Below are positions 6,705-40,537 of a stretch of DNA of 40,853 nucleotides, piece after piece (within the stretch, counting starts at the first letter, position 1; each line of letters begins with the position of its first letter). The DNA comes from a virus: positions 1 through 40,853 of the IMG/VR virus record IMGVR_UViG_3300037258_000475. The stretch is one strand, 5' to 3'. The translations under genes and the position numbers were made by a program. The notes beneath the pieces were generated by a model. That model searched no databases. It was given only the letters and a program-made list of their open reading frames with translations, and was not told the DNA's origin.

Positions 6705-7156
6705 CCGCGCAGCCTGCCGCCGATCGGCGCGCGATGCTGGGGAAGGTGCACCTGGCGCGCAAGCAAATGGGCCTCGACGACGAAACGTATCGCGGGCTGC
6801 TGGAGCGGGTGGTCGGGCAACGGAGCTGCGCGACGTGCTCGGACGGGCAACTGCACCTGGTGCTGGCGGAGTTCGCGCGGCTGGGCTGGACGGCGAAGCC
6901 GGCGCGGACGCGCAGCGATCGGGCGCAGGTGCGGATGATCTACGCGATCTGGGCCGACATCCGGCCGCTGCTGGAGGGCGGCGCCGGCGAGCAGGAGCTG
7001 CGCAGCTTCGTGCGGCGGCAGACGCGCGGGCCGGTGCATCCCGACGGCGTCGACGCGCCGGAATGGCTGGATGGCGCCGACGCGCGCGCGGTGATCGAGG
7101 GGCTGAAGGGCTGGCTGGCGCGGCTGCGCAAGGCACGGGAGGCGGTGCATGCCTGA
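6701..7156 (+). CDS. gemA: GemA-like regulatory protein (DUF1018)
   Basis: The 151-residue protein starts at ATG 6701 (atga overlap). The N-terminal part KVHLARKQMGLDDETYRGLL is the hallmark of the GemA family, followed by the basic segment RSDRAQVRMIYAIWADIRPL and a C-terminal helical region ending GWLARLRKAREAVHA. In phage Mu, GemA is an early protein reported to modulate host gene expression and DNA topology. It lies here, as in Mu, between the replication genes and the middle regulator Mor. Confidence 0.88.
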   Translation: MTAQPAADRRAMLGKVHLARKQMGLDDETYRGLLERVVGQRSCATCSDGQLHLVLAEFARLGWTAKPARTRSDRAQVRMIYAIWADIRPLLEGGAGEQELRSFVRRQTRGPVHPDGVDAPEWLDGADARAVIEGLKGWLARLRKAREAVHA

Positions 7157-7394
7157 GATCCAGCTCGAGTACGGCGATATCGCGTTCATGCGGGAATTGC
7201 CGCGGCTGCTGCCTCGGCATCTGCGCGAGGCTTCACATCCGGCGAAGGTGACGGAGAACAACCGCATCAGGCGGCTGCAATCGCGGGGGCTGATCCGCTG
7301 CACGATCGACGCCGAGCATTCCACTGCCGAATTCGTCATGGGCGAGCTGTCGCTGACCGATGCGGGCCGCGCTGTGCTGGCGGCGGAAAAGTGA
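7149..7394 (+). CDS. Small hypothetical protein, possible winged helix
   Basis: An 81-residue protein starting at ATG 7149 inside the end of gemA. The segments LPRLLPRHLREASHPAK, NNRIRRLQSRGLIRCTI and FVMGELSLTDAGRAVLAAEK follow the pattern helix, helix, recognition helix, beta-wing, helix, as in small winged-helix proteins; the ending T-D-A-G-R is typical of those. DNA binding is an inference. The stop overlaps the ATG of the next gene (tgatg). Confidence 0.6.
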   Translation: MPEIQLEYGDIAFMRELPRLLPRHLREASHPAKVTENNRIRRLQSRGLIRCTIDAEHSTAEFVMGELSLTDAGRAVLAAEK

Positions 7395-7606
7395 TGCGCG
7401 CCGCGCGGAACGTCCCCGATATGATTGCAGAGCGGTTCGCTGTGTCGCCCTCGATCAAGGAACTGAGCGCCGACATCGCGCGGCGCGGCTTCATACTGAC
7501 GCCGAAGGTGCGGCTTTATGCGCGCAGGGATGGCACGCACACCGTGCGCCTGGTGTGGCGGCATCGGGCGCTCGACAGCTCGGTCGTGCTGACCCTCCGA
7601 GTATGA
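7394..7606 (+). CDS. Small hypothetical protein before the Mor-like gene
   Basis: A 70-residue protein. ATG 7394 overlaps the previous TGA; a GTG one codon upstream (7391) is equally possible. It is basic and begins MRAARNVPDMIAERFAVSPS, with ADIARRGFILTPKVRLYARR in the middle and a beta-rich end. No family is recognised. Its stop overlaps the Mor-like ATG, so the two are co-translated. Confidence 0.5.
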   Translation: MRAARNVPDMIAERFAVSPSIKELSADIARRGFILTPKVRLYARRDGTHTVRLVWRHRALDSSVVLTLRV

Positions 7607-8010
7607 TCGACCCGCCGCCCCCGGCCGAGCTGGCGTTCCTGACCGAGGCGATCGGCGCCGAGGCGACGCTGGCGTTGATCGAGGCGCGGGCGGGCACGCG
7701 GGTCTATGTGCCGTGCCGGATCGATCCGGGCTGCCCGCTGGCGAAGATGATCGGCCAGGACGCCGCGCTGGCGCTGGCGGCGCAACATGGCGGCTGCTAC
7801 ATCGCGGTGCCCTCGGCGAAGCGGTGGCGCGCGACGGTCTATCGGGCGCGGTCGATGACGAACGCGCAGATCGCGCTGGCGCTGCGGCTGAACGAGCGCA
7901 CGGTGGAGCGGTATTTCGCCACCGATCTGGGCATCCGCCGTCATCCGACGCAGGTGCCGTCGCGACGTGGCGAGGCCGCAGCAATCCGACAGACCGAAAT
8001 GCCGTTGTGA
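7603..8010 (+). CDS. Mor/C-family middle transcription activator
   Basis: The 135-residue protein is close to the 129 residues of Mu Mor. It starts at ATG 7603 (atga overlap). The N-terminal half has the Mor dimerisation-domain pattern EAIGAEATLALIEARAGTRV followed by PLAKMIGQDAALALAAQHGG. Residues 86-105 (TNAQIALALRLNERTVERYF) form a helix-turn-helix. Mor activates the middle promoter and so leads to expression of the late genes; its place at the end of the early operon and just before the lysis genes agrees. Two extra cysteines (C38, C44) lie in the linker. The TGA stop is the first triplet of a palindromic repeat. Confidence 0.82.
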   Translation: MIDPPPPAELAFLTEAIGAEATLALIEARAGTRVYVPCRIDPGCPLAKMIGQDAALALAAQHGGCYIAVPSAKRWRATVYRARSMTNAQIALALRLNERTVERYFATDLGIRRHPTQVPSRRGEAAAIRQTEMPL

Positions 8011-8031
8011 TGCCGGTGGGCGCCGGCATGA
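8008..8031 (+). repeat. 24-base palindromic repeat, copy 1
   Basis: A perfect hairpin with 7-bp arms atgccgg (8010-8016) and ccggcat (8023-8029) around the loop tgggcg, flanked by tga on both sides. The same 24 bases occur at 17650 and 30314. The first tga is the stop codon of the Mor-like gene. It may work as a weak terminator or mRNA-stabilising element at the early/late border, and it looks like a REP-type repeat. Confidence 0.85.
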
Positions 8032-8069
8032 CTTGGCGCCGCATGCACTCGCACGGTGACGGCTTGTAA

Positions 8070-8097
8070 GCCCGCGTCGCGATCCTCGCACGCGGGC
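8070..8097 (+). terminator. GC-rich hairpin between early and lysis genes
   Basis: The arms gcccgcgt (8070-8077) and acgcgggc (8090-8097) pair perfectly over 8 bp with a 12-base loop. No run of T follows, so it is not a classical intrinsic terminator. It lies in the 106-base gap between the Mor-like gene and the holin-like gene, where Mu carries a regulated late promoter. I cannot recognise promoter boxes in the gap. Confidence 0.4.
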
Positions 8098-8116
8098 GTC
8101 ATGCCGGAGGGGCAAC

Positions 8117-8464
8117 GTGAACGCCACCACACTGAAAACGTGGTTCGGCCAGGTGACGACAGGTATCGGCGCGCTGATCGGTGCGCCTGTCGTGATCGCG
8201 CTGATGACGCATCAGATCACGCTCGACCAGGCGGTGCCGGGCATTGTCGCCGCGGTGATGGGGATGATCTGGCCCGAGAACAAGCAGCTTGCGGGCTCGG
8301 CGCAGACCCTCGCGGCCGATGCCGTGGTGCTGATCCCGCAGCTTCTGAGCGCGTATCACACCGGGCTGCAGCATGGCGCGCAGGCTGTGGCGCAGGCCGC
8401 GCCGACGCCGAACGCGAACACCGCCGCATCGCCGACCGCGGCCGTCGCCAAGACGGCAACCTGA
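8117..8464 (+). CDS. Holin-like small membrane protein
   Basis: The 115-residue protein starts at GTG 8117, preceded by the ribosome site ggagggg (8105-8111). Residues ~15-55 hold two hydrophobic stretches (GIGALIGAPVVIALM and AVPGIVAAVMGMIWPEN) separated by a short polar turn, then a helical part and a low-complexity Ala/Pro/Thr tail. The size, two membrane segments and place at the head of the late genes suit a phage holin or a related lysis membrane protein. No family-specific motif proves it. Confidence 0.6.
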   Translation: MNATTLKTWFGQVTTGIGALIGAPVVIALMTHQITLDQAVPGIVAAVMGMIWPENKQLAGSAQTLAADAVVLIPQLLSAYHTGLQHGAQAVAQAAPTPNANTAASPTAAVAKTAT

Positions 8465-8517
8465 CGATCGCGCGGGGCGATCTCGCTCAATCCCTGATCT
8501 ACAACCGGAGACCACCG

Positions 8518-9156
8518 ATGACCTTCTTCCTGCTGACCTGCTGCCTGATCTTCCTGGCCCTTCTGGTCGTTCGCAGTGTGCAATTCATTCTGCTCCTGGT
8601 GCCCGATGGTCTACGGAAGCCGGTCAGCGGCCTGTCTCGCTGCATTCCCACCGTCGTGACCATCTTCGCCGGCACGCTGCTGCTCGTTGCGTGCGCCACG
8701 CAGTCGCCGGCGCCGTCCAGTGCCTCGGCCAGTACGTCGGCGCCTGTCGCGGCTACACCGACGCCAGTGGCCACACCAGCTCCGGCGGCGACCTTCGCGC
8801 AACTCACCGACGCGGATTTCATTCACTCGCTCGTAATCGCGCAGAACGTCGATCCGCATTGGACGAGTTGCGGCACTTATCTGCACGCGAACTTCGATAC
8901 CCTTGTCGCTGCGCTGAGCGGTCCGGCTTCCGGCGGTATGATCCAGCCGGTCACAGCCTTCGAGCAAGGGCACATCGGCTTGAACAACCTGCTGAGCAAT
9001 GGCACCGGATCGGGCATCTACGCCTTCAACGGCGCGTGCGGCGCATATTCGGCCGACCTCCGAAGCCAGGGCATGACCGCTGCCGCAGCCCTGGCCGCGC
9101 TTCTCGGCAGGATCGGCATCCGTGTCGCGGTGCCGGCGCTGCCGATGGTGCCGTGA
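8518..9156 (+). CDS. Membrane/lipoprotein-like lysis-region protein
   Basis: 212 residues from ATG 8518, with ccggag just upstream. Residues 3-28 are a strong membrane segment and 43-58 a second one ending in the lipobox-like LVAC (Cys59). A Ser/Pro/Ala/Thr linker (~62-92) leads to a C-terminal domain with DADFIHSLVIAQNVD and three cysteines. An in-frame GTG at 8599 (codon 28) would give a shorter product with a classic lipoprotein signal: basic start, hydrophobic core, LVAC. The context between a holin-like protein and a hydrolase suggests a role in lysis, perhaps spanin-like, but I see no Rz/Rz1 similarity. Confidence 0.6.
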   Translation: MTFFLLTCCLIFLALLVVRSVQFILLLVPDGLRKPVSGLSRCIPTVVTIFAGTLLLVACATQSPAPSSASASTSAPVAATPTPVATPAPAATFAQLTDADFIHSLVIAQNVDPHWTSCGTYLHANFDTLVAALSGPASGGMIQPVTAFEQGHIGLNNLLSNGTGSGIYAFNGACGAYSADLRSQGMTAAAALAALLGRIGIRVAVPALPMVP

Positions 9157-9160
9157 CGTG

Positions 9161-9790
9161 ATGCTGTCCGACGTCGGCCTGGCGCTGCTCCAGGCCGACA
9201 GCTACGCCGCGGCGCCGCCGTTGGGCCAGGTGTTCGATGCCGGGCCGGACCGCGCCGTGATCAACCGCTTCCCCGGCTGTGTCGTGGTCACCGTGCGCGG
9301 GACCGCGAACCCGGCCGGATGGTGGTCGGATTTTCAGATCGCACCGAAGATCCCGCGCACCCATCCCACATTGGGCGTCTGCGAAGACGGCTTCCTGACC
9401 GGCGCCGAGGCGCTGTTTCGCGTGGTCAGCCCGCAATTGGGAACCGACCCGCCGACGCCGCTGGTCGTTCAGGGGCATTCCCGCGGCGCTGCGATCGCAC
9501 CGATCCTCGCGATGTTGCTCGGCGCGGCGCGGTGCGTGGCCTGGGAAGCGCCCTGGGGCAACGGCCAGCAGCTCCGCGACATGATCGCGGCGTCCGGCAT
9601 GACCGGGCAACAGTACTGGCATGGAGACGATCCGGTGCCGCTGGTGCCCGCCGAGCCGTGGCTGGTGATGGCGAATTTCGCGATCCGGCATTTCGGGCGT
9701 TGGACGGCAAATCCGTTCGATAGCCACGGCATCGCGGGGATCGTGGCGGACGTGCGGGCCGGCGCGATCGGACCCCCGGAAGCGGCGTGA
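9161..9790 (+). CDS. Alpha/beta-hydrolase, lipase class 3-like
   Basis: 209 residues from ATG 9161; a GTG one codon upstream is possible. The nucleophile elbow GHSRG places Ser107 after the strand PLVVQ. Asp156 or Asp157 (HGDDPVP) and His189 (SHGIAG) are in the right order for a catalytic triad. VVVTVRGTANPAGWWSDFQI resembles the lid and oxyanion region of class 3 lipases. There is no signal peptide. In the lysis module it may cleave membrane lipid or envelope esters during release; this is an inference. No peptidoglycan hydrolase fold is present in this gene. Confidence 0.78.
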   Translation: MLSDVGLALLQADSYAAAPPLGQVFDAGPDRAVINRFPGCVVVTVRGTANPAGWWSDFQIAPKIPRTHPTLGVCEDGFLTGAEALFRVVSPQLGTDPPTPLVVQGHSRGAAIAPILAMLLGAARCVAWEAPWGNGQQLRDMIAASGMTGQQYWHGDDPVPLVPAEPWLVMANFAIRHFGRWTANPFDSHGIAGIVADVRAGAIGPPEAA

Positions 9791-30337: not shown

Positions 30338-30370
30338 CCCGGCATTTGCGCGCGCGCGACGGTGCGCCGC

Positions 30371-30832
30371 ATGCCCTGGATCGATCAGAAACTGATCTAC
30401 GATCCCCTTCTGCGTCGGTGCACGCTGGCGTTCAACGGCGTCGATCTGCAGATCGATGCGACGCCGGTGACGCCGGTGCTGATCGCGATCGGGTGCGATC
30501 GGCGGGCGCATCCGGACGATGTGTTGCCGGACGTGGTGGCGAACGCCTATGCGCCGGGCCGGTTGAATGCGCGGCGCGGGTGGTGCGGCGATGCACTCGA
30601 TACGTTGGGGCGGCTGGTCGGCAGCCGCATGTGGCTTTACCAGGTCGGCAAGCAGGACGAAGCGACGCGCAGGGGTGCCGAGGGCGCGATCGCCGAAGCG
30701 CTGGGGCCGGTCGCCAAGCAACGCGATTGGCCGATCGCGATCACCGTCACGTGGGTTCGCAAGGGCTTCCTGGGCTGCCTGACGAAGATCGGCAACACCA
30801 CGCTGAACCTGACGCTGCCGGCGGCGTCCTGA
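30371..30832 (+). CDS. Mu gp46-like baseplate wedge protein
   Basis: 153 residues from ATG 30371; a GTG three codons upstream is an alternative. It shows MPWIDQKLIYDPLLRRCTLA, GRLNARRGWCGDALDTLGRL, then GSRMWLYQVGKQDEATRRGA and the C-terminal ITVTWVRKGFLGCLTKIGNT, the pattern of the GP46 family. It is a small wedge component next to gp47. The stop overlaps the next ATG. Confidence 0.9.
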   Translation: MPWIDQKLIYDPLLRRCTLAFNGVDLQIDATPVTPVLIAIGCDRRAHPDDVLPDVVANAYAPGRLNARRGWCGDALDTLGRLVGSRMWLYQVGKQDEATRRGAEGAIAEALGPVAKQRDWPIAITVTWVRKGFLGCLTKIGNTTLNLTLPAAS

Positions 30833-31947
30833 TGCCCTGGCCGATCCCGCTGCCCGCCGACATCGCCGACCGCGCCGCGGCCGTCTACGAGGCGGAATTC
30901 GCGCGCATCTGGGCGCTGCTGAACCCGACTGCACCGGAGCCACCGCAGGTGGATGCGCGGTCGCCGGCTTCGATGCTGGCGGTGCATGCGCGCGTGCTGG
31001 GCATCACCGGGTTCGACCTGTACGGCATGCAGGCGCGGCTGGCGCAGGAGCTGATGCCGACGACGGCGATCGACTGGCTGCCGAAGCACGGGCAGACCTG
31101 GGGCGTGCCGCAGGATCAGCCGGTGCCGGCGGTGGGCAACCTGGTGCTGCCGGGCGGCTCGATCGGCTTCGTCATTCCGGAAGACGCGGCATTCAGCGTC
31201 AACGGCGGCGGCGTCTACGAGGTGGTGAACGCGGTCACGATCGAGGCTGCCGGCACGATCAGCGTGGGCGTATCGGCGGCCGTCGCGGGAACGGCGGGGG
31301 ACCTGGTGGCCGGGGTGACGCTGACCGCGGTCAGCCCGCTGTCGGGGCTGACCTCGCAGTCCGGCACGATCGATGTGAACGGCGTGACCGGCGGCCAGGA
31401 CCTGGAGGCGATCGAGAGCTGGCGGACGCGCATCATCCAGCGCATCCAGCAGCGTGGCGCCGGCGGCGACGGCAACGATTTCATTGCCTGGACGCAGACC
31501 GTGCTGCCGACGGCGATGGTGTATCCGTTCTCGCCCGGCCTTGGACAGATCACCGTGGTGATCGCCATGCCGACCGCGACTGGCTGGCGGGTGCCGACAT
31601 CGACCGAGCTGTCCGAGGCGACGGCGTATCTGAACGATGCGGCGAACCGCAAGCCACTGGGCGCGCCGGTGGTGAACGTGATCGCCGCGACGCTGCAGCC
31701 GGTCAACTTCACGCTGCACATGAACCCCGACACGACGGCGGTGCAGCAGGGCGCGACGGCGGCGCTGCAGCTTTACTTCATGAGTTCCGACATCCAGATC
31801 AACGGCACGCTGGATGTCTCGCGGTCGGACAACGCGATCAGCTTTGCCGCCGGCGCCTTCAGCTTCGACCGGACCGTGCCGAGCGGTGATATCAGTCCCG
31901 GCACGATCAGCTCACTGTTGACGCTCGGCACGGTGACGTTCGTATGA
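30832..31947 (+). CDS. Mu gp47-like baseplate protein (baseplate J family)
   Basis: 371 residues from ATG 30832 (tgatg overlap). Baseplate-J features are GFDLYGMQARLAQELMPTTA, AIDWLPKHGQTWGVP, the VAGTAGDLVAGVTLTAVSPL segment and GVTGGQDLEAIESWRTRIIQ, then GDGNDFIAWTQTVLPTAMVY. It forms the wedge ring that triggers sheath contraction. Length and order agree with Mu. Confidence 0.93.
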   Translation: MPWPIPLPADIADRAAAVYEAEFARIWALLNPTAPEPPQVDARSPASMLAVHARVLGITGFDLYGMQARLAQELMPTTAIDWLPKHGQTWGVPQDQPVPAVGNLVLPGGSIGFVIPEDAAFSVNGGGVYEVVNAVTIEAAGTISVGVSAAVAGTAGDLVAGVTLTAVSPLSGLTSQSGTIDVNGVTGGQDLEAIESWRTRIIQRIQQRGAGGDGNDFIAWTQTVLPTAMVYPFSPGLGQITVVIAMPTATGWRVPTSTELSEATAYLNDAANRKPLGAPVVNVIAATLQPVNFTLHMNPDTTAVQQGATAALQLYFMSSDIQINGTLDVSRSDNAISFAAGAFSFDRTVPSGDISPGTISSLLTLGTVTFV

Positions 31948-32543
31948 GCCGCACCGCCGCCCAGGCGCAGGCCGGCGTGTTGGCGTTGTATCCCGACGGC
32001 TGGGTGTTTTCGCGCGACGGGGATGATTATCCGGCCGCACTCGAGCTGCCGACCGGCGCCGAGTGGTCGTTGGTCGAGCAAACGATGGAGAGCTTCGAAC
32101 AGGAGCTTGATCCGGGGACGGCGCAGCATCTGCTGCCGGATTATCTGGAGGTGTTGGGACCGGATCCGTATGGGCGGGATCTGCTGACGTTTTCGGAGGT
32201 GCAGCAGTCACTGCTGGCACACCAGCGATGGGTCGACGCGCCGACGATCTGCGCCGGCTATTTCATCGACAGCGCAGCGGCCTTGGGCATCACCATCACC
32301 ATCGACGAATTCCCGCGCGTTCCGTGCGGCGTCTTCAAGGCCGGCAACACACTGCGCCCGACGCCGCAGCACTGCGTATTCCGGGTGAACCTGCCGACCA
32401 ACCTGGTGTGGCACGCGAAGAGCGGCAGCTTCAAATGCGGCAACGCGCTGGGCGGCTTCACGCCGTCGCTGCTGGAGAACTTCATCAGGGACAAAGCGCC
32501 TCTCTTCACGCGCCCTGTCTTCTCTTACACCGGACCGAGCTAG
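31944..32543 (+). CDS. Mu gp48-like tail protein (DUF2313)
   Basis: 199 residues from ATG 31944 (atga overlap). The segments LALYPDGWVFSRDGDD, the EQTMESFEQELDPGTAQHLL helix, DYLEVLGPDPYGRDLLTF and CGVFKAGNTLRPTPQHCVFR fit DUF2313, a baseplate protein that connects wedges to the fibres. It ends five bases before the first fibre gene. Confidence 0.87.
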   Translation: MSRTAAQAQAGVLALYPDGWVFSRDGDDYPAALELPTGAEWSLVEQTMESFEQELDPGTAQHLLPDYLEVLGPDPYGRDLLTFSEVQQSLLAHQRWVDAPTICAGYFIDSAAALGITITIDEFPRVPCGVFKAGNTLRPTPQHCVFRVNLPTNLVWHAKSGSFKCGNALGGFTPSLLENFIRDKAPLFTRPVFSYTGPS

Positions 32544-32547
32544 TCAC

Positions 32548-33702
32548 ATGGATCGCACACTAGGCACGGGCTACCAGACGAACAGCGGGAAACGCTTCTT
32601 CCAGGACGAGAACCTTGGCGCCGCCATCCAGGGCAGCGACGTTGACGAGATTTTCCTGAATTCGCTGCAAGAGTGCGTCATCGCGGCGTACGAGCAGCTT
32701 GGGGTCACGCCTGCCAACGCGGCCGAGTTCAGCCCTGATCTTCAGTTGCTCCAGGCGATCCGCGTGATCGGCGCGGGCGCCATCACGAAGATAACGGCGG
32801 CGACCGCGACGCTCACGCTGCTCAATGCCGGGCTGGTGATAATCGACGCCACTGCTAACAATGTCGCCATCACGCTGCCGCTGGTCGCCTCGGCGAATGG
32901 TCAGTCGCTGGATTTCACCTTCCAGCGCATCGACGCCTCGGCCAACGCCGTCACGCTGCTGCCGAGTGGCAGCGACAGATGGCAGCCGGGCACACTGACC
33001 GGTACTTATTCCCCGGCGCCAGGCGAGATCTTCAGGATACGGGGCGACGGGAGCGCCGGGTGGAACGTGCTGCGGCGCGCGCCGGCGGTCTTTGTTCTCA
33101 CCTCCAGCGCAACGCTAACGGTGCCGGTTGGCATCACCGAACTGGAAGTCGAGGTGATCGGCGCCGGCGGCGGTGGGGGCGGCTGCACTGGCGCAACCGT
33201 CAATGTCGGGCTGTGTGGAGCCGGGGGAGGAAGAGCGACCAAGCTCGTGCAGGGGTTGATCCCCGGCACGAACATCACCGTGACTGTCGGCGCAGGGGGA
33301 ACCGGAGGAATTGGAGGGGGAGCTGCGCCGACGGGGGGAGGAACGACTTCTTTTGGCTCGTATGTGTCCGCGACCGGCGGGGGCGGCGGTTCGAACGGAA
33401 CGTCGGGTGGCCCGGGCACGTCGCCCGGCGCGCCAGGGTCAGGCAGCGGTGGCGACACCAATCTCACCGGTCAAAGTGGCGGGACCTATTGGCTGGCCGG
33501 ATCAGCCAACGGCTATGTCAGCCCCGGGGGCGGGGCCGCGCCGGGGATGGGCGGCGCGCAGCCTGTGAACGCTTACGATTCGAACGGCAGCTCGGGGGAC
33601 AATTACGGAAATGGTGGAAACGCCGCAATGACCGCAAGCGGCGCCACGCACAATGGCGGCGCCGGCGCTGGGGGCCTGGTCATCGCGAAGTTTGGCAGAT
33701 GA
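32548..33702 (+). CDS. Tail fibre with glycine-rich C-terminal domain
   Basis: 384 residues from ATG 32548. The N-terminal ~90 residues (GTGYQTNSGKRFFQDENLGA, VDEIFLNSLQECVIAAYEQL) look like a baseplate-attachment domain. A beta-rich middle (ATNNVAI-like; LLPSGSDRWQPGTLTGTYSP) leads to a region from ~205 to the end dominated by glycine, with VIGAGGGGGGCTGATVNVG and the final GGAGAGGLVIAKFGR. Such glycine-rich domains form polyglycine-II-type folds in some phage adhesins. No signal peptide is present. It probably contributes to receptor binding. Confidence 0.8.
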   Translation: MDRTLGTGYQTNSGKRFFQDENLGAAIQGSDVDEIFLNSLQECVIAAYEQLGVTPANAAEFSPDLQLLQAIRVIGAGAITKITAATATLTLLNAGLVIIDATANNVAITLPLVASANGQSLDFTFQRIDASANAVTLLPSGSDRWQPGTLTGTYSPAPGEIFRIRGDGSAGWNVLRRAPAVFVLTSSATLTVPVGITELEVEVIGAGGGGGGCTGATVNVGLCGAGGGRATKLVQGLIPGTNITVTVGAGGTGGIGGGAAPTGGGTTSFGSYVSATGGGGGSNGTSGGPGTSPGAPGSGSGGDTNLTGQSGGTYWLAGSANGYVSPGGGAAPGMGGAQPVNAYDSNGSSGDNYGNGGNAAMTASGATHNGGAGAGGLVIAKFGR

Positions 33703-33776
33703 GCATCTATGCGCACCTGGTCAGCGGGATTGTCGCCGCGTTGTTCACGCCGGCGGCGACGGTGACGATCGCCTGA
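33699..33776 (+). CDS. 25-residue peptide after the fibre gene
   Basis: ATG 33699 overlaps the fibre stop (atga), and its stop overlaps the next ATG (tgatg). The sequence YAHLVSGIVAALFTPAATVT resembles the N-terminus (YAHV-GVV-E-FTPP) of small phage proteins found after fibre genes, but stops early. It is either a minimal functional peptide or a truncated relic kept for translational coupling. Confidence 0.5.
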   Translation: MSIYAHLVSGIVAALFTPAATVTIA

Positions 33777-34084
33777 TGCCCCGCGAGATCCACATCAAGC
33801 AGGGCGCGGCGCTGCGGCTGACGCTGACCTTCTACGAGCAGGACGCGCCGGTCGATCTGTCGACGGTGACGCTGTCGAGCCAGGCGCGGACGGCAGTGGG
33901 CACGCTGGTGGCGACGCTGCCGATCACGGTGACCGGCACGCCGGGGCTGGCGACGGTCGAGATGGACGACACCGGCGACTGGCCGATCGGGCTGCTGCGC
34001 TGCGACGTGCGGATGGTCATCGCGGGCGTGACGTCGCTGTCGGAGACGTTCCCGATCCGCGTCGAACGGAGTGTCACGACATGA
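33776..34084 (+). CDS. Small beta-rich fibre-region protein
   Basis: 102 residues from ATG 33776 (tgatg overlap). It begins PREIHIKQGAALRLTLTFYE with an Ig-like or BppU-N-like beta pattern (DLSTVTLSSQARTAVGTLVA, then MDDTGDWPIGLLRCDVRMVI). Proteins of this type lie beside fibre genes and act as baseplate/fibre adaptors. Function inferred from context. The stop overlaps the next ATG. Confidence 0.6.
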   Translation: MPREIHIKQGAALRLTLTFYEQDAPVDLSTVTLSSQARTAVGTLVATLPITVTGTPGLATVEMDDTGDWPIGLLRCDVRMVIAGVTSLSETFPIRVERSVTT

Positions 34085-34512
34085 AGGTGGTGATCGCGCA
34101 GGTCGACACGCTGCCGCCGGTGCTGCCGGCGGCAACGCAGGCCAACGCCACCGACACGATGGTGCTGAACCAGACCGGGACGATGGCGGCTGCCACGGTG
34201 GCGCAGGTGGCGAACGTGACGGGGTCGATCAACTCTGGCGTGACGGCGAGCGGCACGACACAGGACACCGGCGTGCCGATCACGGCGGCGCTGACGATCT
34301 TCACGAACGTCGCGGCAGATGCGGCGGCGACACTGACGCTGGTGCCCGGCAACCGCGCGGTGGTGGTGAACCGGGGCGCCAACCCGCTGGCCCTGTTCCC
34401 GCCGGACGGTCATCAGATCGAGACGCTGGGCGTGAACGCCGCCGCATCGGTTTCCGCGGGATCCACCACGACGTTTGCTTACGAGGGTGCCGGGCAGTGG
34501 TACGCCTTCTAG
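34081..34512 (+). CDS. Beta-rich fibre-region protein
   Basis: 143 residues from ATG 34081 (atga overlap). Thr/Ala/Val-rich with GNRAVVVNRGANPLALFPPD, GHQIETLGVNAAASVSAGST and the end TTFAYEGAGQWYAF, a pattern seen in head or tail-fibre appendage proteins of phages. No signal peptide. It overlaps the next gene by 16 bases. Confidence 0.65.
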   Translation: MKVVIAQVDTLPPVLPAATQANATDTMVLNQTGTMAAATVAQVANVTGSINSGVTASGTTQDTGVPITAALTIFTNVAADAAATLTLVPGNRAVVVNRGANPLALFPPDGHQIETLGVNAAASVSAGSTTTFAYEGAGQWYAF

Positions 34513-37193
34513 CCATCGCACTGCTGTGGGCGTCGCTGCTGTCCGGCACGCCGGCCTGGGCGGTGTGCAACAGTTTCAGCGCGATACAGGCGCAGAACAA
34601 CCTGGCGGATCTCTGCGATCCGCACCAGGCGCTGCTGAACCTGACGCAGGGCTCGGGCACAATTCCCGGCGGTGTGGGGGCGCTGAACCCGTCGGCGCAC
34701 GCGTTCGTCACCGGCAATGTCGCGGGCGTGCTGCAAACCGCGCAGCCGGCGTTCACCGACCTGGCCGGGGCGGCAACGGCGGCGCAGCTTCCGGCGCCGA
34801 GCGCGAGCACGATCGGCGGGGTGGAAAGCCTGGTGCCCGCCACGCATCTTTTCATGACCGGGATCTCGACGCTGGGCATTCCGAGCGCGGCGCAGGTGGG
34901 CTTCGGCGATCTGTCCGGGCAGGCATCGCTGTCACAGATCCCGACCGTGCCGACAACGCAGATCAGCGGGCTGGGTACGCTTGCCACGCTGGGCGCCGCA
35001 CCGGCGGGGACGCTGACCGGGTCGACGCTGGCGTCCGGCATCACCGCGTCTTCGCTGGCGTCGCTGGCCGGCGGGGCCGTGGGCACCGCGGCCTATGTCA
35101 GCACGGGCACCAGCGGCGGCGTTGTCGGGCTGCTGAACGCCAACAAGACGGATAGCGGGACCAACACGTTCTCGGGCGCGATGACGCTGTCCGGTAGCGG
35201 TACGGCGCTGACCGTGAACGCCAATGCAGCCGTGGGCGGCACGGCGAGCCTGGGCAATGCGAGCGGCAACTACGTGCAGATCGCGGGGTCGGCCGGCAAC
35301 CCATCGATTTCAGTGAAGGGAACGTCAGGCGGGAGCCTGCTGCTGGTGCCCAACGGCACCGGTGCCGTCAACATTCAGAACGGCAACGGCGGCAACATCA
35401 CCCAGTTTCTGAGCAGCTCCAGCGGCACCGCGACCGACACGCTGGACATCTACGCGCAAACGACGACCGCCACGCCGATCAGGATCAGCACCCAGAACGG
35501 CTACGGCATCAACTTCCAGGGCATGCCGATCGAGCAAAGCCGCACCTACACCGTGTCCGGGTCCGAGGCGTCGTTCGAGAACCAAGGTCTCAACCTCAAT
35601 TTCACCGTCAAGGGCGCCACGACGGACACCATCAACAATGGTCCCATCGGGGTGATCACCAACCGGGTGACGTTCGGCGACGGGACGACCGGGGGCGCCT
35701 TCACCTGTGGTTTCTGTGGTGCCCCGTTCAACTTCCGCGGGGTGGTCGCGGCGAACTCCGTCATGCATTTGGGCGGCCTGGTGGCGACCCTGGAGCAGGG
35801 CGGCGCGCCGGGCACGTATCCAGCGTGGGCCGCTGACACGGTCTATAGCGCCACGACGCCCAGCATCGTTGCCAGCGGCGAGTATTACTACGAGGCGGAT
35901 GCCCCCGGTGGGACCTCGGGGACCGCCGGCATCTCGACGTCCTGCATTCCGGGTGCATCGGCGTCGCTCTGCTGGGACGGTGCAGGCCAGACCGGCGTTC
36001 AGTGGAACCCGATCGATATCGTCGCCAACCAGACCTATCTGCTTGGCGTCGCACTGGGCACGAACGCTTCGTATAACGCCGGCGGATCGTTGTCCGGCGG
36101 CCCAATCGGCGTGGTGTTCGGCGGCAACATCATCGCGCACCTTTACAGCGGCGCCACGTTCTACGCCGGGGTTGCCTCCTTCGAAGTGGATACCGAGCTG
36201 GATCCGGGCAGCAGCACTGATAACGCACTTGGGGGGCAATTCGTTCACCAGGGCTCGGTGCAAGGCTCTTATTCGGATGTCGCGCTGAGGATCGGGTCCA
36301 GCGGCGCGCAGTGGCTGGATGGGCTTGCGTTTTCCAATGCGATCGACCCAAACGGCACGGCCATGATTTTTGGCGGCGGCGCGGGGATCGTCGGGCAGGG
36401 TCTGGGCTCTCTTCCGTTCAACGTCGCCGGCGTGCTCGACATGATGGACGTTCAGCCGAGCGCGATCTGCTCCGGCGGCAACGTGGGGAGCGGCGGAGCC
36501 TACGGATACGGCCTGCTGAGCTGTCCGGCCAATTACAGCGGCGGCTATTTCTACCTGCGCACGCGCGCCGGTCCGAGCGGCATCCTGGGCAACGGTGACA
36601 TCTACACCGGCACCGGCGCGTTGCACGCCGTTGCCGGCGGCATCGCGCTGGACACATTCCAGTACGTCATGACGTCGACCACGCTTACGACCAACGGCGA
36701 TGGCGCAAACTGGTCATCCGCGGCGGGCAGTAACTACGCCCACGATGGATACGGCGATGAAGGAACTGTCTCGACTTCCGGCGGCGCGGTCACCTCCGTC
36801 ACGATCACCGTGCATGGAGTTCAGCAATCCGGCCAGCTCCCGCCCGCGGGGAACGTGACCTGGTATCCCGGGTCGGCGCCGGCCTCGCTCACCGGGACCG
36901 GCGAGGGACGCCCCCCCGTGCCGTTCACGGCGCCGGCGGCAAACTACACCTGGGTGCTGGGCACCAGCGTCGGCATCGGCAACACGCACGCGACCGGCAT
37001 CGCGATCGGCAACAGCGGGTCGACCACCACGATCGCCGGCGTGCTGAAAGGCGCCGCGGGCACCTTCACGGCCGACGGCACGACAGCCACCACGATGACG
37101 GCGCTGGGGCCGGCCGGCGCGCACACCACCGTGCAGGAATGGTTCACCGTCACGGATGCGGGCGGCACCGTCCGCTACATCCCGGCCTACTAG
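34497..37193 (+). CDS. Large tail-fibre-like protein with an apparent signal peptide
   Basis: 898 residues if it starts at GTG 34497 inside the previous gene. Residues 1-22 (VVRLLAIALLWASLLSGTPA, then WA) form a typical Sec signal with an A-W-A cleavage site before VCNSF. Then follow fibre motifs (AIQAQNNLADLCDPHQALLN, STIGGVESL) repeated in several SxAxxxGxxDLxGxA-type turns, long Gly/Ser/Thr beta regions, and the C-terminus GTFTADGTTATTMTALGPAG, ending VTDAGGTVRYIPAY as in phage fibres. A later in-frame GTG at 34563 would remove the signal. Cysteines at several places (FTCGFCGAPFNF) could form disulfides after export. Probable adhesin or receptor-binding protein. Confidence 0.75.
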   Translation: MVRLLAIALLWASLLSGTPAWAVCNSFSAIQAQNNLADLCDPHQALLNLTQGSGTIPGGVGALNPSAHAFVTGNVAGVLQTAQPAFTDLAGAATAAQLPAPSASTIGGVESLVPATHLFMTGISTLGIPSAAQVGFGDLSGQASLSQIPTVPTTQISGLGTLATLGAAPAGTLTGSTLASGITASSLASLAGGAVGTAAYVSTGTSGGVVGLLNANKTDSGTNTFSGAMTLSGSGTALTVNANAAVGGTASLGNASGNYVQIAGSAGNPSISVKGTSGGSLLLVPNGTGAVNIQNGNGGNITQFLSSSSGTATDTLDIYAQTTTATPIRISTQNGYGINFQGMPIEQSRTYTVSGSEASFENQGLNLNFTVKGATTDTINNGPIGVITNRVTFGDGTTGGAFTCGFCGAPFNFRGVVAANSVMHLGGLVATLEQGGAPGTYPAWAADTVYSATTPSIVASGEYYYEADAPGGTSGTAGISTSCIPGASASLCWDGAGQTGVQWNPIDIVANQTYLLGVALGTNASYNAGGSLSGGPIGVVFGGNIIAHLYSGATFYAGVASFEVDTELDPGSSTDNALGGQFVHQGSVQGSYSDVALRIGSSGAQWLDGLAFSNAIDPNGTAMIFGGGAGIVGQGLGSLPFNVAGVLDMMDVQPSAICSGGNVGSGGAYGYGLLSCPANYSGGYFYLRTRAGPSGILGNGDIYTGTGALHAVAGGIALDTFQYVMTSTTLTTNGDGANWSSAAGSNYAHDGYGDEGTVSTSGGAVTSVTITVHGVQQSGQLPPAGNVTWYPGSAPASLTGTGEGRPPVPFTAPAANYTWVLGTSVGIGNTHATGIAIGNSGSTTTIAGVLKGAAGTFTADGTTATTMTALGPAGAHTTVQEWFTVTDAGGTVRYIPAY

Positions 37194-37201
37194 GAGAGAT
37201 C

Positions 37202-37606
37202 ATGAAACGCCTGATCGTTGTTGCCGCGGTTTTCGGTGCGCTTGTTGCCCCCTTGGCCGCGCGGGCGCAGTCGCCGTTGACGGTCGAGATGCCCGTGGGG
37301 GAGATGGCGGCGATCCAGCAGTTCCTGCTGCACCCACCGATGAACGATCACATCGATCCGGGCGACGTGATGGCGTTGCTGGAGGTTCTTGACGCCTGCG
37401 CGGCGGTGCAGACGCCGGTCAATGGCGTGACGCGGGACACCGGCGGGTGCCCGGCGGTGAGCGCTGCAATCCGGGCGCGCCACGCTGCCCAGGAGGCGGC
37501 TGTGGCGAAAGCCGTCGCGGCGCAGAAGGCGACGGACGACGAGGCGCAGAAGGCGAAGGACGCCGGGGCGGCTGCCGGGCCGACGGGCACCCCGGCTGCG
37601 CAATAG
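37202..37606 (+). CDS. Small exported Ala-rich protein
   Basis: 134 residues from ATG 37202 with aggagag upstream. The N-terminus MKRLIVVAAVFGALVAPLAA with R-A-Q (ARA|Q) is a textbook Sec signal peptide. The mature part has VEMPVGEMAAIQQFLLHPPM, two cysteines (~69, 83) that could pair, and an Ala/Lys-rich helical tail (AAVAKAVAAQKATDDEAQKA). No family recognised. It lies between two larger proteins with signal peptides and is probably part of the same exported group. Confidence 0.7.
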   Translation: MKRLIVVAAVFGALVAPLAARAQSPLTVEMPVGEMAAIQQFLLHPPMNDHIDPGDVMALLEVLDACAAVQTPVNGVTRDTGGCPAVSAAIRARHAAQEAAVAKAVAAQKATDDEAQKAKDAGAAAGPTGTPAAQ

Positions 37607-37625
37607 ATCTCTGGAGGGCGGCAGC

Positions 37626-38444
37626 ATGACGATGCGTTCCCTATGGCTTGCACTGGCGTTCGTGCTGGGCGCGGCCGTCTCGGCCGAGGCGACGACGTGC
37701 CCGAACGTGGCGACGGTCAACGTCGCGGTCGACGGTTATGGCGGCGAGTGCATCGCCGGCTTCGCGCCGAACGGCAACTATGCCTCGCCGCTGTCGGTCA
37801 CCACCGGGGGCGCCGAGGTGGCGTTGCCGGCCGGCGTGCTGGTCGCGGCGAGCAACCCAGGGTCGAACCCGGAATGGGTGAACCTCGGCACCAGCTCGGG
37901 CGTAACGGCCACGACGGCCGACATCATGATCCCGGCGGGCTGCACCGTTCCGCTTGCCGCCAGCGCCAACACGTATATCGCGGCGATTTCGACCGGGGGC
38001 AGCACCACACTGAACCTGGCGGCCGGATCGGGCTTCTTCGCGCCGTTCTGCGCCGGCGGCAGCGGTGGGGGCGGCGGCGGCAGCGTCACGCAAGGGACGA
38101 ACCCGTGGGTGACGTCTCCGGCCGCGCTCACGCCTGTCACGGCGTCTACGTCGCTTTCTTCCAGCCAGGTGCTGAAATCGTCCGCGGGCACGTTCTTCGG
38201 CGCCCAGGTGAACACGACCACGGCGGCGGTTTTCGTGATGCTGTTCAACGCCACGTCGCTGCCTTCGAACGGGGCCGTCACGCCGATCGGCTGGTGGCAG
38301 GTGCCGGCGAACAGCACGGCCTCGATCGCCGAAGCACCAGCGGCTTCGATGGGCGCGGGCATCACGCTCGGCTGCTCGACCACTGGGCCGTTCACGTTGA
38401 CGGCAACGTCGACCTGCACATTCGCAATGGGGATGGTTCAATGA
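37626..38444 (+). CDS. Exported beta-rich protein, unknown function
   Basis: 272 residues from ATG 37626 with ctggagg upstream. The signal peptide MTMRSLWLALAFVLGAAVSA (EA, cleavage near A-E-A|T) precedes a cysteine-containing domain (TTCPNVATVNVAVDGYGGEC), a domain with GTSSGVTATTADIMIPAGCT, a Gly-rich linker GGSGGGGGGSV near residue 150, and a C-terminal domain (SQVLKSSAGTFFGAQVNTTT) that resembles phage structural Ig-like modules, ending TCTFAMGMVQ. The stop overlaps the next ATG. Possible envelope-displayed phage-derived module. Confidence 0.72.
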   Translation: MTMRSLWLALAFVLGAAVSAEATTCPNVATVNVAVDGYGGECIAGFAPNGNYASPLSVTTGGAEVALPAGVLVAASNPGSNPEWVNLGTSSGVTATTADIMIPAGCTVPLAASANTYIAAISTGGSTTLNLAAGSGFFAPFCAGGSGGGGGGSVTQGTNPWVTSPAALTPVTASTSLSSSQVLKSSAGTFFGAQVNTTTAAVFVMLFNATSLPSNGAVTPIGWWQVPANSTASIAEAPAASMGAGITLGCSTTGPFTLTATSTCTFAMGMVQ

Positions 38445-39535
38445 ACAGGGCGCAGATTCTTCTCGCCGCGACTGCGCTCTGCGCGGCGCAGCTCGGGCTG
38501 GATCGCGCGAACTTCGGTGTGGTTGCTGCCCAGGCCGAGGGCCTGGCGGTGTCATCCCCGCCGCTCGCGGTCGGGACGCTGATCACGGCATCAGCCACGA
38601 TCAGCCTGCCGACAGGCTGGCATGAAGTGGATGGGATGATGGTCGCGGGTGGCGCCGGCGCTGGGTGCGGGATTGTAGAGGCCACTGGCACCGCCTCGGC
38701 CGGCGGTTCTGCCGGGGGCACGAGCTTCGACAAACCGTTTTATTTCACGCCGTCGGATTTCGGGAACGTTGGGTCTATCGTCGTCAACATCGGCACAGCG
38801 GGGGCGGGTTGCACGTCGAGCGGCACCACGGCGGGAAGCACTGGATCTGCGCCCGCGAACGGGAGCGTCACATCCATCATCGTCGGCAGCAATACGCTGC
38901 TTGCCTACGCCGGGGGCGCCGGCGCCAATCCCAGCGGTGCGGCATCGAACACCCAAGGCGGTGGGTCGGCCGGGATGCGGAGTTCTGGCAACGGCAGCAC
39001 TGCCGGTCAAATAGGTGGGGAGAATGGGGGTAACGGTGCCGTTGGCATCTCGCAGAGCGGCGGCTATCCCGGCTCGGGGGTGTCAGGCGCTGGCGGTGTC
39101 AGTGGCGCGGCTGGTTCAAACGGAACCGCGGCGACGCAGGGGCCGGCCGGCGCCCCGGCGGGAGGGGGTATCAACGCCGGCAATACGGCTTTCGCCGGAG
39201 GGGCCGCCGGTACTGGCGAGGGGAACGGGAACAGCGCAGCGGGCGGCACCGTGTGCAGCAACGGCACGACGGCTGGCGTCAACGGGTTGACCGACGTGTT
39301 GGCTGGGATCCCAGGGTCCGCTGGAGGGGCGTGCACGATTGGACCGGGTGGCAATGGTGCGGTGGGAGCGGGCTACGGATATGGCGGTGCCGGGGGCGGT
39401 TCGGCTCAGGTGGGGAATACGGCTGGAAGCGGATCGGCGGGCGGCGGCGGAGCGGTGAGGCTTCACGTGTCCGAGCTGGATGCCAGGTCGCTGGACGAGA
39501 TCATAGGCCTCGATGGGGGCCGCGCGATCGGCTGA
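38441..39535 (+). CDS. Glycine-rich protein with N-terminal signal-like segment
   Basis: 364 residues from ATG 38441 (atga overlap). The N-terminus MNRAQILLAATALCAAQLGL is a hydrophobic signal-like segment, with possible cleavage further on at AQA|E. A beta-domain (ASATISLPTGWHEVDGMMVA, GGAGAG) leads into a glycine-rich region (~85-345) with many GG-A-G-G and NGGNGAVG units and a final GGGGAVRLHVSELDARSLDE. The layout parallels the C-terminal domain of the 32548 fibre, including the starting G-A-G-G and ending G-G-A-V, but this protein carries a signal. Likely an exported or surface adhesin-type protein. Confidence 0.72.
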   Translation: MNRAQILLAATALCAAQLGLDRANFGVVAAQAEGLAVSSPPLAVGTLITASATISLPTGWHEVDGMMVAGGAGAGCGIVEATGTASAGGSAGGTSFDKPFYFTPSDFGNVGSIVVNIGTAGAGCTSSGTTAGSTGSAPANGSVTSIIVGSNTLLAYAGGAGANPSGAASNTQGGGSAGMRSSGNGSTAGQIGGENGGNGAVGISQSGGYPGSGVSGAGGVSGAAGSNGTAATQGPAGAPAGGGINAGNTAFAGGAAGTGEGNGNSAAGGTVCSNGTTAGVNGLTDVLAGIPGSAGGACTIGPGGNGAVGAGYGYGGAGGGSAQVGNTAGSGSAGGGGAVRLHVSELDARSLDEIIGLDGGRAIG

Positions 39536-39664: not shown

Positions 39665-39724
39665 ATGAACCGCCCCGCTTCCCCCGGCCGGAGGCGCGGC
39701 AATTGTGGGTCCCGCTTCGTGAAG

Positions 39725-40537
39725 ATGTCGCTAATCCCAGCCACCGCGGCCGTCTCGGTGGCGCCCTATATCGGGGGCAAACGTCGCTTGGCCGCGCTGA
39801 TCATCGAGCGGCTGGGTGCCATCCCGCACGAGACGTATGTCGAGCCGTTCGTGGGGATGGGCGGTGTGTTCCTGCGCCGACCGTTCAGGGCGCGCGGCGA
39901 GGTGATCAACGATCTCAGTCGCGACGTGGCGACGCTGTTTCGCATTCTCCAGCGTCACTACGTCCCTTTCATGGAGATGCTGCGCTACCAGGTCACCAGC
40001 CGCGTCGAATTCGAACGGTTGAGCGCGGCCGAGCCCGACACGCTCACCGACCTCGAACGGGCAGCGCGGTTCCTTTATCTGCAGCGCACTGCGTTCGGCG
40101 GGAAGGTGGCTGGTCGGAATTTCGGGGTGGCGCCGACGGTGGGGGCGCGCTTCGATGTCACCAAGCTGGCGGCGATCCTGGAGGCGGTGCATGAGCGCCT
40201 CTCCAGCGTGGTCATCGAATGCCTGCCCTACCACCTTCTGCTGCCCCGTTATGACCGGGCTGAGACGCTGTTCTATCTCGACCCGCCTTACTGGGGGAGC
40301 GAAGGCGACTATGGGGCCAGCCTGTTTGGGCGCGAGGACTTCGAGCGTGTGGCCGAGCTGCTGGGTGCCCTGAAGGGACGGTTCCTGATGTCGATCAACG
40401 ATGTGCCGGAGGTGCGCCGGCTTTTCCGTGGGTTCCGGATTGAGCGGGTGTCGACGACCTACTCAATCGCGGGGGCGATGGGCAGCCGGCCTGCTGCCGA
40501 GCTGCTGATCACGAACGGCCGTAAGGGGGGTCTTTGA
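39725..40537 (+). CDS. D12-class adenine-N6 DNA methyltransferase (Dam-like)
   Basis: 270 residues from ATG 39725; an in-frame ATG at 39665 would add 20 residues with no family resemblance, but lies closer to a ribosome-site-like cggagga. The D12 pattern is clear: APYIGGKRRLAALIIERLG (K19 in the SAM-binding start), motif I YVEPFVGMGGVFL (residues 38-50), VINDLSRDVATLFR, and the catalytic DPPY at 186-189. It methylates adenine in short duplex sites. Its place at the right end equals that of mom in Mu, which protects phage DNA from restriction. It may equally act on gene expression. The recognition site cannot be read from sequence. Confidence 0.92.
   Translation: MSLIPATAAVSVAPYIGGKRRLAALIIERLGAIPHETYVEPFVGMGGVFLRRPFRARGEVINDLSRDVATLFRILQRHYVPFMEMLRYQVTSRVEFERLSAAEPDTLTDLERAARFLYLQRTAFGGKVAGRNFGVAPTVGARFDVTKLAAILEAVHERLSSVVIECLPYHLLLPRYDRAETLFYLDPPYWGSEGDYGASLFGREDFERVAELLGALKGRFLMSINDVPEVRRLFRGFRIERVSTTYSIAGAMGSRPAAELLITNGRKGGL

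Follow-up and report, generated by a model that had tools for sequence, protein, structure and literature searches.

A putative Sec-exported second fibre module in the late region of a Mu-like phage contig and its relatives

Gene content of the fibre region

The window, i.e., the whole stretch of 40,853 bases that was analyzed, is a contig of a Mu-like phage. The genes gp46-gp47-gp48 (30362-32543) are followed by fibre 1, the remnant of a DUF4376 gene, an LtfC-like gene, gene 34081, a group of four genes and a methylase gene (Table 1). An earlier note on this DNA had described the four as consecutive fibre-region genes with Sec signal peptides, and all four reading frames (34497, 37202, 37626, and 38441) were present where it had placed them. 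Fibre 1 is an ordinary cytoplasmic tail fibre. In the closest relatives, L006 and L007, it is followed by signal-less, full-length counterparts of the DUF4376 remnant (L006:10123-10653 and L007:12602-13081), which match PF14301, and similar signal-less DUF4376-type genes were found in L030, L018, L026, and L036. The LtfC-like product aligned with 78-79% identity to its L006 and L007 counterparts. The Dam-type methylase, which likewise ends the region in L006, L007, and L024, takes the place where Mu carries mom; it is 66% identical to a plasmid methylase of Azospirillum thermophilum, and Azospirillum was the closest match among plasmids.

Table 1 Features of the fibre region of the window
Feature	Coordinates	Strand	Remarks
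Fibre 1	32548..33702	+	C-terminal glycine-rich adhesin-type domain PF21722 (3.9e-11); phrog_863/6202 tail fibre; no signal
DUF4376 gene remnant, 25 codons, MSIYAHLVSGIVAALFTPAATVTIA	33699..33776	+	DUF4376 gene full length in relatives
LtfC-like beta-sandwich protein	33776..34084	+	PF23926 (7.6e-4), below cut-off
Small protein directly 5' of the exported fibre	34081..34512	+	N-terminus weakly like an internal segment of L003_7107
Large fibre, predicted exported, 898 aa, GTG start	34497..37193	+	Predicted signal peptide 34497-34562; 8 Cys after cleavage
Small protein, predicted exported, 134 aa, strong RBS	37202..37606	+	Predicted signal peptide 37202-37267; 2 Cys
Protein, predicted exported, 272 aa	37626..38444	+	Predicted signal peptide 37626-37691; 6 Cys; start shared with L006:11388 and L007:13819
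Glycine-rich protein, 364 aa	38441..39535	+	Doubtful signal peptide 38441-38536; 4 Cys past the proposed site
Dam-type adenine methylase	39665..40537	+	PF02086 (1.5e-21); closes the region

Packing within the group is tight, with a 16-nt overlap between 34497 and the preceding stop, gaps of 8 and 19 nt before 37202 and 37626, and a 4-nt overlap of 38441 with its neighbour. Across the window and its relatives, signal-bearing genes and their neighbours overlap by 1 to 16 nt or are separated by 19 nt at most, and in the relatives they overlap or abut late tail genes. No promoter or terminator separating the group from the tail genes was found beyond chance, which is a weak test in a high-GC phage. 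A lysogenic-conversion gene (moron) was considered and ruled against by these overlaps and short gaps together with the failure to find a promoter of its own. Gene starts were inferred; the GTG start of 34497 is supported by L018, where exactly the same 16-nt overlap occurs (9697 versus 9712). The GC-frame gene caller missed 37626, 38441, and several genes of relatives, and of these 37626 is backed by homology.

Neither Pfam nor PHROGs returned a family for any of the four products, and sequence searches of the PDB gave nothing useful. A muralytic domain, which would be expected of a SAR or exported endolysin, was not matched in the products in Pfam or PHROGs. AlphaFold2 models were of low confidence, with a pLDDT of 33 for residues 341-898 of the 34497 product and of 28 for L007_14265 with L006_12262.

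Signal peptides and cysteine content

Signal peptides were scored with a home-made, rule-based scorer (charge of the n-region, an uncharged hydrophobic core of 8 to 14 residues, and the -3/-1 rule; threshold 5.5), which recovered 8 of 10 known Escherichia coli Sec signals. Its matches among 162 annotated background genes (from Burkholderia phage Bm1, Mu, RcapMu, and a Mu-like prophage of Pannonibacter) were limited to short proteins of membrane or lysis type and a single large protein of Bm1, which proved to be a relative. In the window, the features of a Sec (SPI) signal, namely, a charged n-region, a core of 8 to 14 residues and an AxA site, were found in 34497 (MVRLLAIALLWASLLSGTPAWA before VCNS, score 7.1), 37202 (MKRLIVVAAVFGALVAPLAARA before QSPL, 7.5), and 37626 (MTMRSLWLALAFVLGAAVSAEA before TTCP, 6.6). 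They were not found in 38441, where the proposed signal (MNRAQILLAATALC...LDRANFGVVAAQA before EG) scored 4.6, below the threshold, with charged residues separating the core from the site. The claim of four Sec signals was thus upheld for three genes and not for the fourth, in which the signal is weak, atypical and doubtful. A lipoprotein was rejected by eye for 38441 as no lipobox is present.

The sharp change in signal content noted earlier was confirmed, since none of the 48 other called genes of the window scored as a signal, compared to three of the four in the group (Fisher p = 2e-4); no signal was scored either in 32548, 33776, and 34081, the fibre genes that precede the group. Upstream of the gp47/gp48 boundary in 17 loci, the scorer picked out a single gene of 202, which is truncated by the end of its contig.

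A test independent of the signal scores made use of the tendency of cysteines to occur in pairs in proteins folded within an oxidizing compartment. Cysteines were counted after the predicted cleavage site in complete proteins with a well-supported signal peptide and any cysteine at all. Their number was even in all 19 such proteins, compared to 88 of 231 signal-less proteins from the same phages (Fisher p = 4e-8); the 19 counts are partly non-independent because some of the proteins share domains, and their direction is uniform. The counts were 8, 2, and 6 in the window; 4, 12; 4, 12; 10, 2, 18; 10, 2; 4; 2; 4, 2; and 8, 4 in other phages; and 10 in Bm1. One cysteine, C21 of L030_6948, adjoins the proposed cleavage site. 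The count for 38441, which was left out of the 19, is even too. Even numbers of cysteines after predicted cleavage suggest that the proteins form disulfides and fold outside the cytoplasm.

Conservation in relatives and fibre character

Direct searches of viral contigs with the 37202 and 37626 products returned no homologue (the former was also without a Pfam or PHROG match), so the baseplate protein gp47 provided the only route to relatives. No homologue of 38441 was found, and scans of genome contigs returned no prophage relative. The slot after gp47-gp48-fibre 1-LtfC-like gene bears signal-peptide genes in nine phages, i.e., the window, L006, L007, L018, L026, L024, L030, L032, and L042. 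Gene order is preserved in L006 and L007, with signal genes after the 34081 homologue and then the methylase, and their genes L006:11388 and L007:13819 form a family with 37626 that has a common signal and a CPNVxTxNxAxDGxGxxC start and diverges afterwards. Farther relatives carry other proteins with signals in the slot (L018:9697; L026:13808; L024:13754, ~15988, and 16365; L030:6948 and 10142; L032:10741; and L042:9745); signals recur on non-homologous protein bodies. A sister group (L034-L041) has large signal-less fibres in the same slot. On the gp47 tree the signal trait is clustered, and two or three changes are needed to explain it. Two contigs from phages that are not Mu-like carry homologues as well. 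L002 has three consecutive signal genes (6720, 8231, and 9443) and L003 has two, 2406 and 619; the 619 signal was identified by visual inspection, as the scorer does not allow charged residues at the cleavage site.

A conserved mature N-terminus followed by a variable C-terminus was seen among the window, L006, and L007, among L018, L026, and the window, and in two tandem genes of L002. The latter (6720-8186 and 8231-9442) share the mature N-terminus TRAQLExxINxTIKxNGxGAITG...QLxNLAASMAT behind two different signal peptides. The C-terminal domain of L002_8231 exists in cyanophages as a stand-alone protein encoded directly after the major head protein. In L032 (10741-14443), the signal is on the small protein 10741 only and the next large fibre (11294) is without one; this locus is possibly an intermediate state.

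The fibre-like character attributed to the 34497 product in the earlier note was borne out. Over its last 40 to 67 residues it shares 50-68% identity with fibres of contigs L002-L005, of which L003_7107, L004_6885, and L005_5280 are signal-less and L002_6720 bears a signal, and parts of its shaft are 33-53% identical to the signal-bearing fibres of L026, L018, and L030. Signals are conserved both in the 37626 family (L006 and L007) and among the 34497-type fibres (L018, L026, L030, and L002). A segment of the L026 product is 63% identical to a Klebsiella K64-1 tail fibre, L030_6948 matches the Pam5 tail spike, and L024_13757 has a pectate-lyase-like match (PF12708, 5.6e-5) below the cut-off. 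Strings resembling the motifs of SGNH hydrolases, an enzyme class recognized by GDS, GxND, and DxxH motifs and by its fold, were found, without a Pfam match, in L006_12262, L007_14265, and L024_16365 and are absent from the window protein. Relatives in annotated phages such as Rivra20, Pam5_18, the g10 fibre of a cyanophage, and the cyanophage homologues of the L002_8231 C-terminus consistently lack a signal. Since the exported proteins are related to signal-less fibres and spikes, the signals appear to have been added to, or kept on, otherwise fibre-like bodies. The 34497 product is related in sequence to fibres and spikes, but it bears an export signal that cytoplasmic fibre synthesis lacks; because of the signals in three genes and in the relatives, the exported products were not classified as ordinary cytoplasmic fibres. 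Export of the 34497, 37202, and 37626 products, as presumed in the earlier note, is supported by conserved signals, short hydrophobic cores and even cysteine numbers after predicted cleavage.

Smaller neighbours of the fibre were compared as well. The N-terminus of 34081 (34081-34260) resembled an internal segment of L003 7107-8204 (Smith-Waterman z = 6.3 against shuffles), and hhalign of 34081 against other fibre N-termini was negative; a split fibre made of 34081 and 34497 is possible and is offered as a lead only. In L030, a signal-bearing DUF4376 gene (10142) lies directly after the exported fibre, in addition to the signal-less DUF4376-type gene after fibre 1. In the window, the 37202 product takes the place of this partner, with no detectable homology to DUF4376.

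Burkholderia phage Bm1 is virulent (PMC12003559). Its CDS_0099 (PP183292.1 60058-63063; L027 4819-7824), annotated as hypothetical, encodes 1001 aa with the predicted signal MKKLVSALLLFAASVGVLA followed by Q and 10 cysteines, and is 33% identical to the exported fibre of L026 over 253 residues (2e-26). The ordinary fibres of Bm1 lie in its tail operon; both they and the chaperone are signal-less and far from CDS_0099.

Possible roles of the exported products

Comparison of the sequences makes it probable that the 34497-38441 region is a late, Sec-exported second fibre or spike module whose products mature in the periplasm and function at lysis or afterwards. A second large fibre or spike module would have been moved onto the Sec pathway. 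Its genes would be translated late, together with the tail operon, and the products exported via Sec with cleavage of their signal peptides and folded with disulfides in the periplasm; in L030 the fibre would be accompanied by an exported DUF4376 partner. On lysis, the products would meet virions and cell debris and may act as receptor- or polysaccharide-binding proteins, some of those in relatives probably being spike-type enzymes. The parts of this reading that the sequences directly support are the signals and their conservation, the even cysteines, the slot that the phages have in common, the homology to fibres and the close spacing of the genes.

As the end point of this late module, docking on released virions as distal fibres is tentatively and slightly favoured over a life as free fibres. 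For docking speak the size of the proteins, the slot, which is ordinarily occupied by a virion fibre, judging from the large signal-less fibres of the sister phages L034-L041, and the conserved mature N-termini, which suggest a common docking partner. Fibres and spikes of T4 and P22 can attach to incomplete particles in extracts, so that docking at lysis would be feasible. We know of no tailed phage that attaches fibres after periplasmic export in vivo; proteins in the periplasm have no contact with virions in the cytoplasm until the cell lyses. The restriction of the L032 signal to the small protein, and not to the next large fibre, counts against the exported module as a whole. A broader proposal, that virions of some tailed phages are completed outside the cytoplasm by the attachment, during lysis, of Sec-exported distal fibres or spikes that have been folded and disulfide-linked in the periplasm together with an exported partner, is possible but doubtful. 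The products may instead never enter the virion, accumulating in the periplasm and being released at lysis to mask the receptors of debris and sibling cells or cleave surface polysaccharide so that progeny are not lost. This is somewhat unlikely, given the virion-fibre slot and the shared mature N-termini and because, disulfide formation aside, export would be superfluous for free fibres; it would account for the SGNH-like strings and the below-cut-off pectate-lyase-like match in relatives and for the several unrelated exported proteins per phage, and the position of Bm1 CDS_0099 away from the ordinary fibres that the phage retains fits a free role better than docking.

The earlier note had preferred export by the lysogen, with the prophage displaying the fibres as surface adhesins, receptor masks or decoys. 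The temperate, Mu-like nature of the phage, the signal peptides themselves and the adjoining methylase, in a region where Mu has non-virion genes, agree with such a display, but it now appears improbable. In the relatives, these genes lie directly against late tail genes or overlap with them, and Bm1, which is virulent and has no lysogen, codes for a homologue with a predicted export signal, so that a function confined to lysogens cannot be general. The promoter search, weak as it is, points the same way, and no outer-membrane anchor, lipobox or autotransporter domain was recognized in the Pfam and PHROG searches. Its other suggestion, virion-borne segments that insert into a membrane, is disfavoured and, together with chance hydrophobicity, is less probable still. 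N-termini rich in alanine and leucine are common in high-GC genomes, and the small upstream gene L018:9377 scored 5.9 without looking like a signal. However, apart from the group no gene of the window and hardly any upstream gene of the relatives scored, the cores of about 8 to 14 residues with AxA sites are short compared to the 18 or more residues of anchors, the cysteine counts are even, and signals recur on unrelated bodies.

In the standard view, tailed phages assemble in the cytoplasm up to the point of lysis, and maturation outside the cytoplasm is, to our knowledge, not how their fibres are made. PblA and PblB of phage SM1, compared here by description only, are tail-type proteins that act outside the virion at the cell surface; in contrast to the window products, they are exported without a signal peptide. 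The Mu S/S' and U/U' region (G segment) also sits between baseplate genes and a DNA-modification gene, but the Mu fibres are signal-less, and the window shows no invertase or inverted second fibre. The second fibres of the sister group L034-L041 share the slot and a similar size; they differ in lacking a signal, in starting with a PISGLTxFxPxGRMLxPVxDP-type N-terminus and in having no sequence similarity that we could find to the exported bodies. The podophage-like fibres L003_7107, L004_6885, and L005_5280 and the Pam5 spike have C-terminal or shaft domains in common with the exported fibres but are signal-less, with 0, 1, and 0 cysteines in L003_7107, L004_6885, and Pam5_18, respectively.

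A Sec route for phage proteins is established for the exported endolysin Lys44 of fOg44 and for SAR endolysins, which wait outside the cytoplasm until the holin acts (PMC6116005). The window products resemble these in being sent, as predicted, through Sec and held outside the cytoplasm; they differ in that endolysins are lysis enzymes, whereas the window products are of fibre type with cleavable-type signals and even cysteines. No report of Sec-exported tailed-phage fibres was found in the open-licence full-text literature, and one paper takes the lack of a signal peptide in variable phage proteins as an indication of phage origin (PMC6199706). What is new here is the apparent use of the Sec route for fibres.

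If the interpretation is true, either part of the virion would mature in the periplasm or phages would release free, export-matured proteins active on receptors or polysaccharides, and both readings give predictions that are open to ordinary proteomics. A simple rule, a signal peptide together with an even number of cysteines in the fibre region, may uncover further examples among annotated phage genomes; the one found here in an annotated record is that of Bm1, where it is listed as a hypothetical protein.
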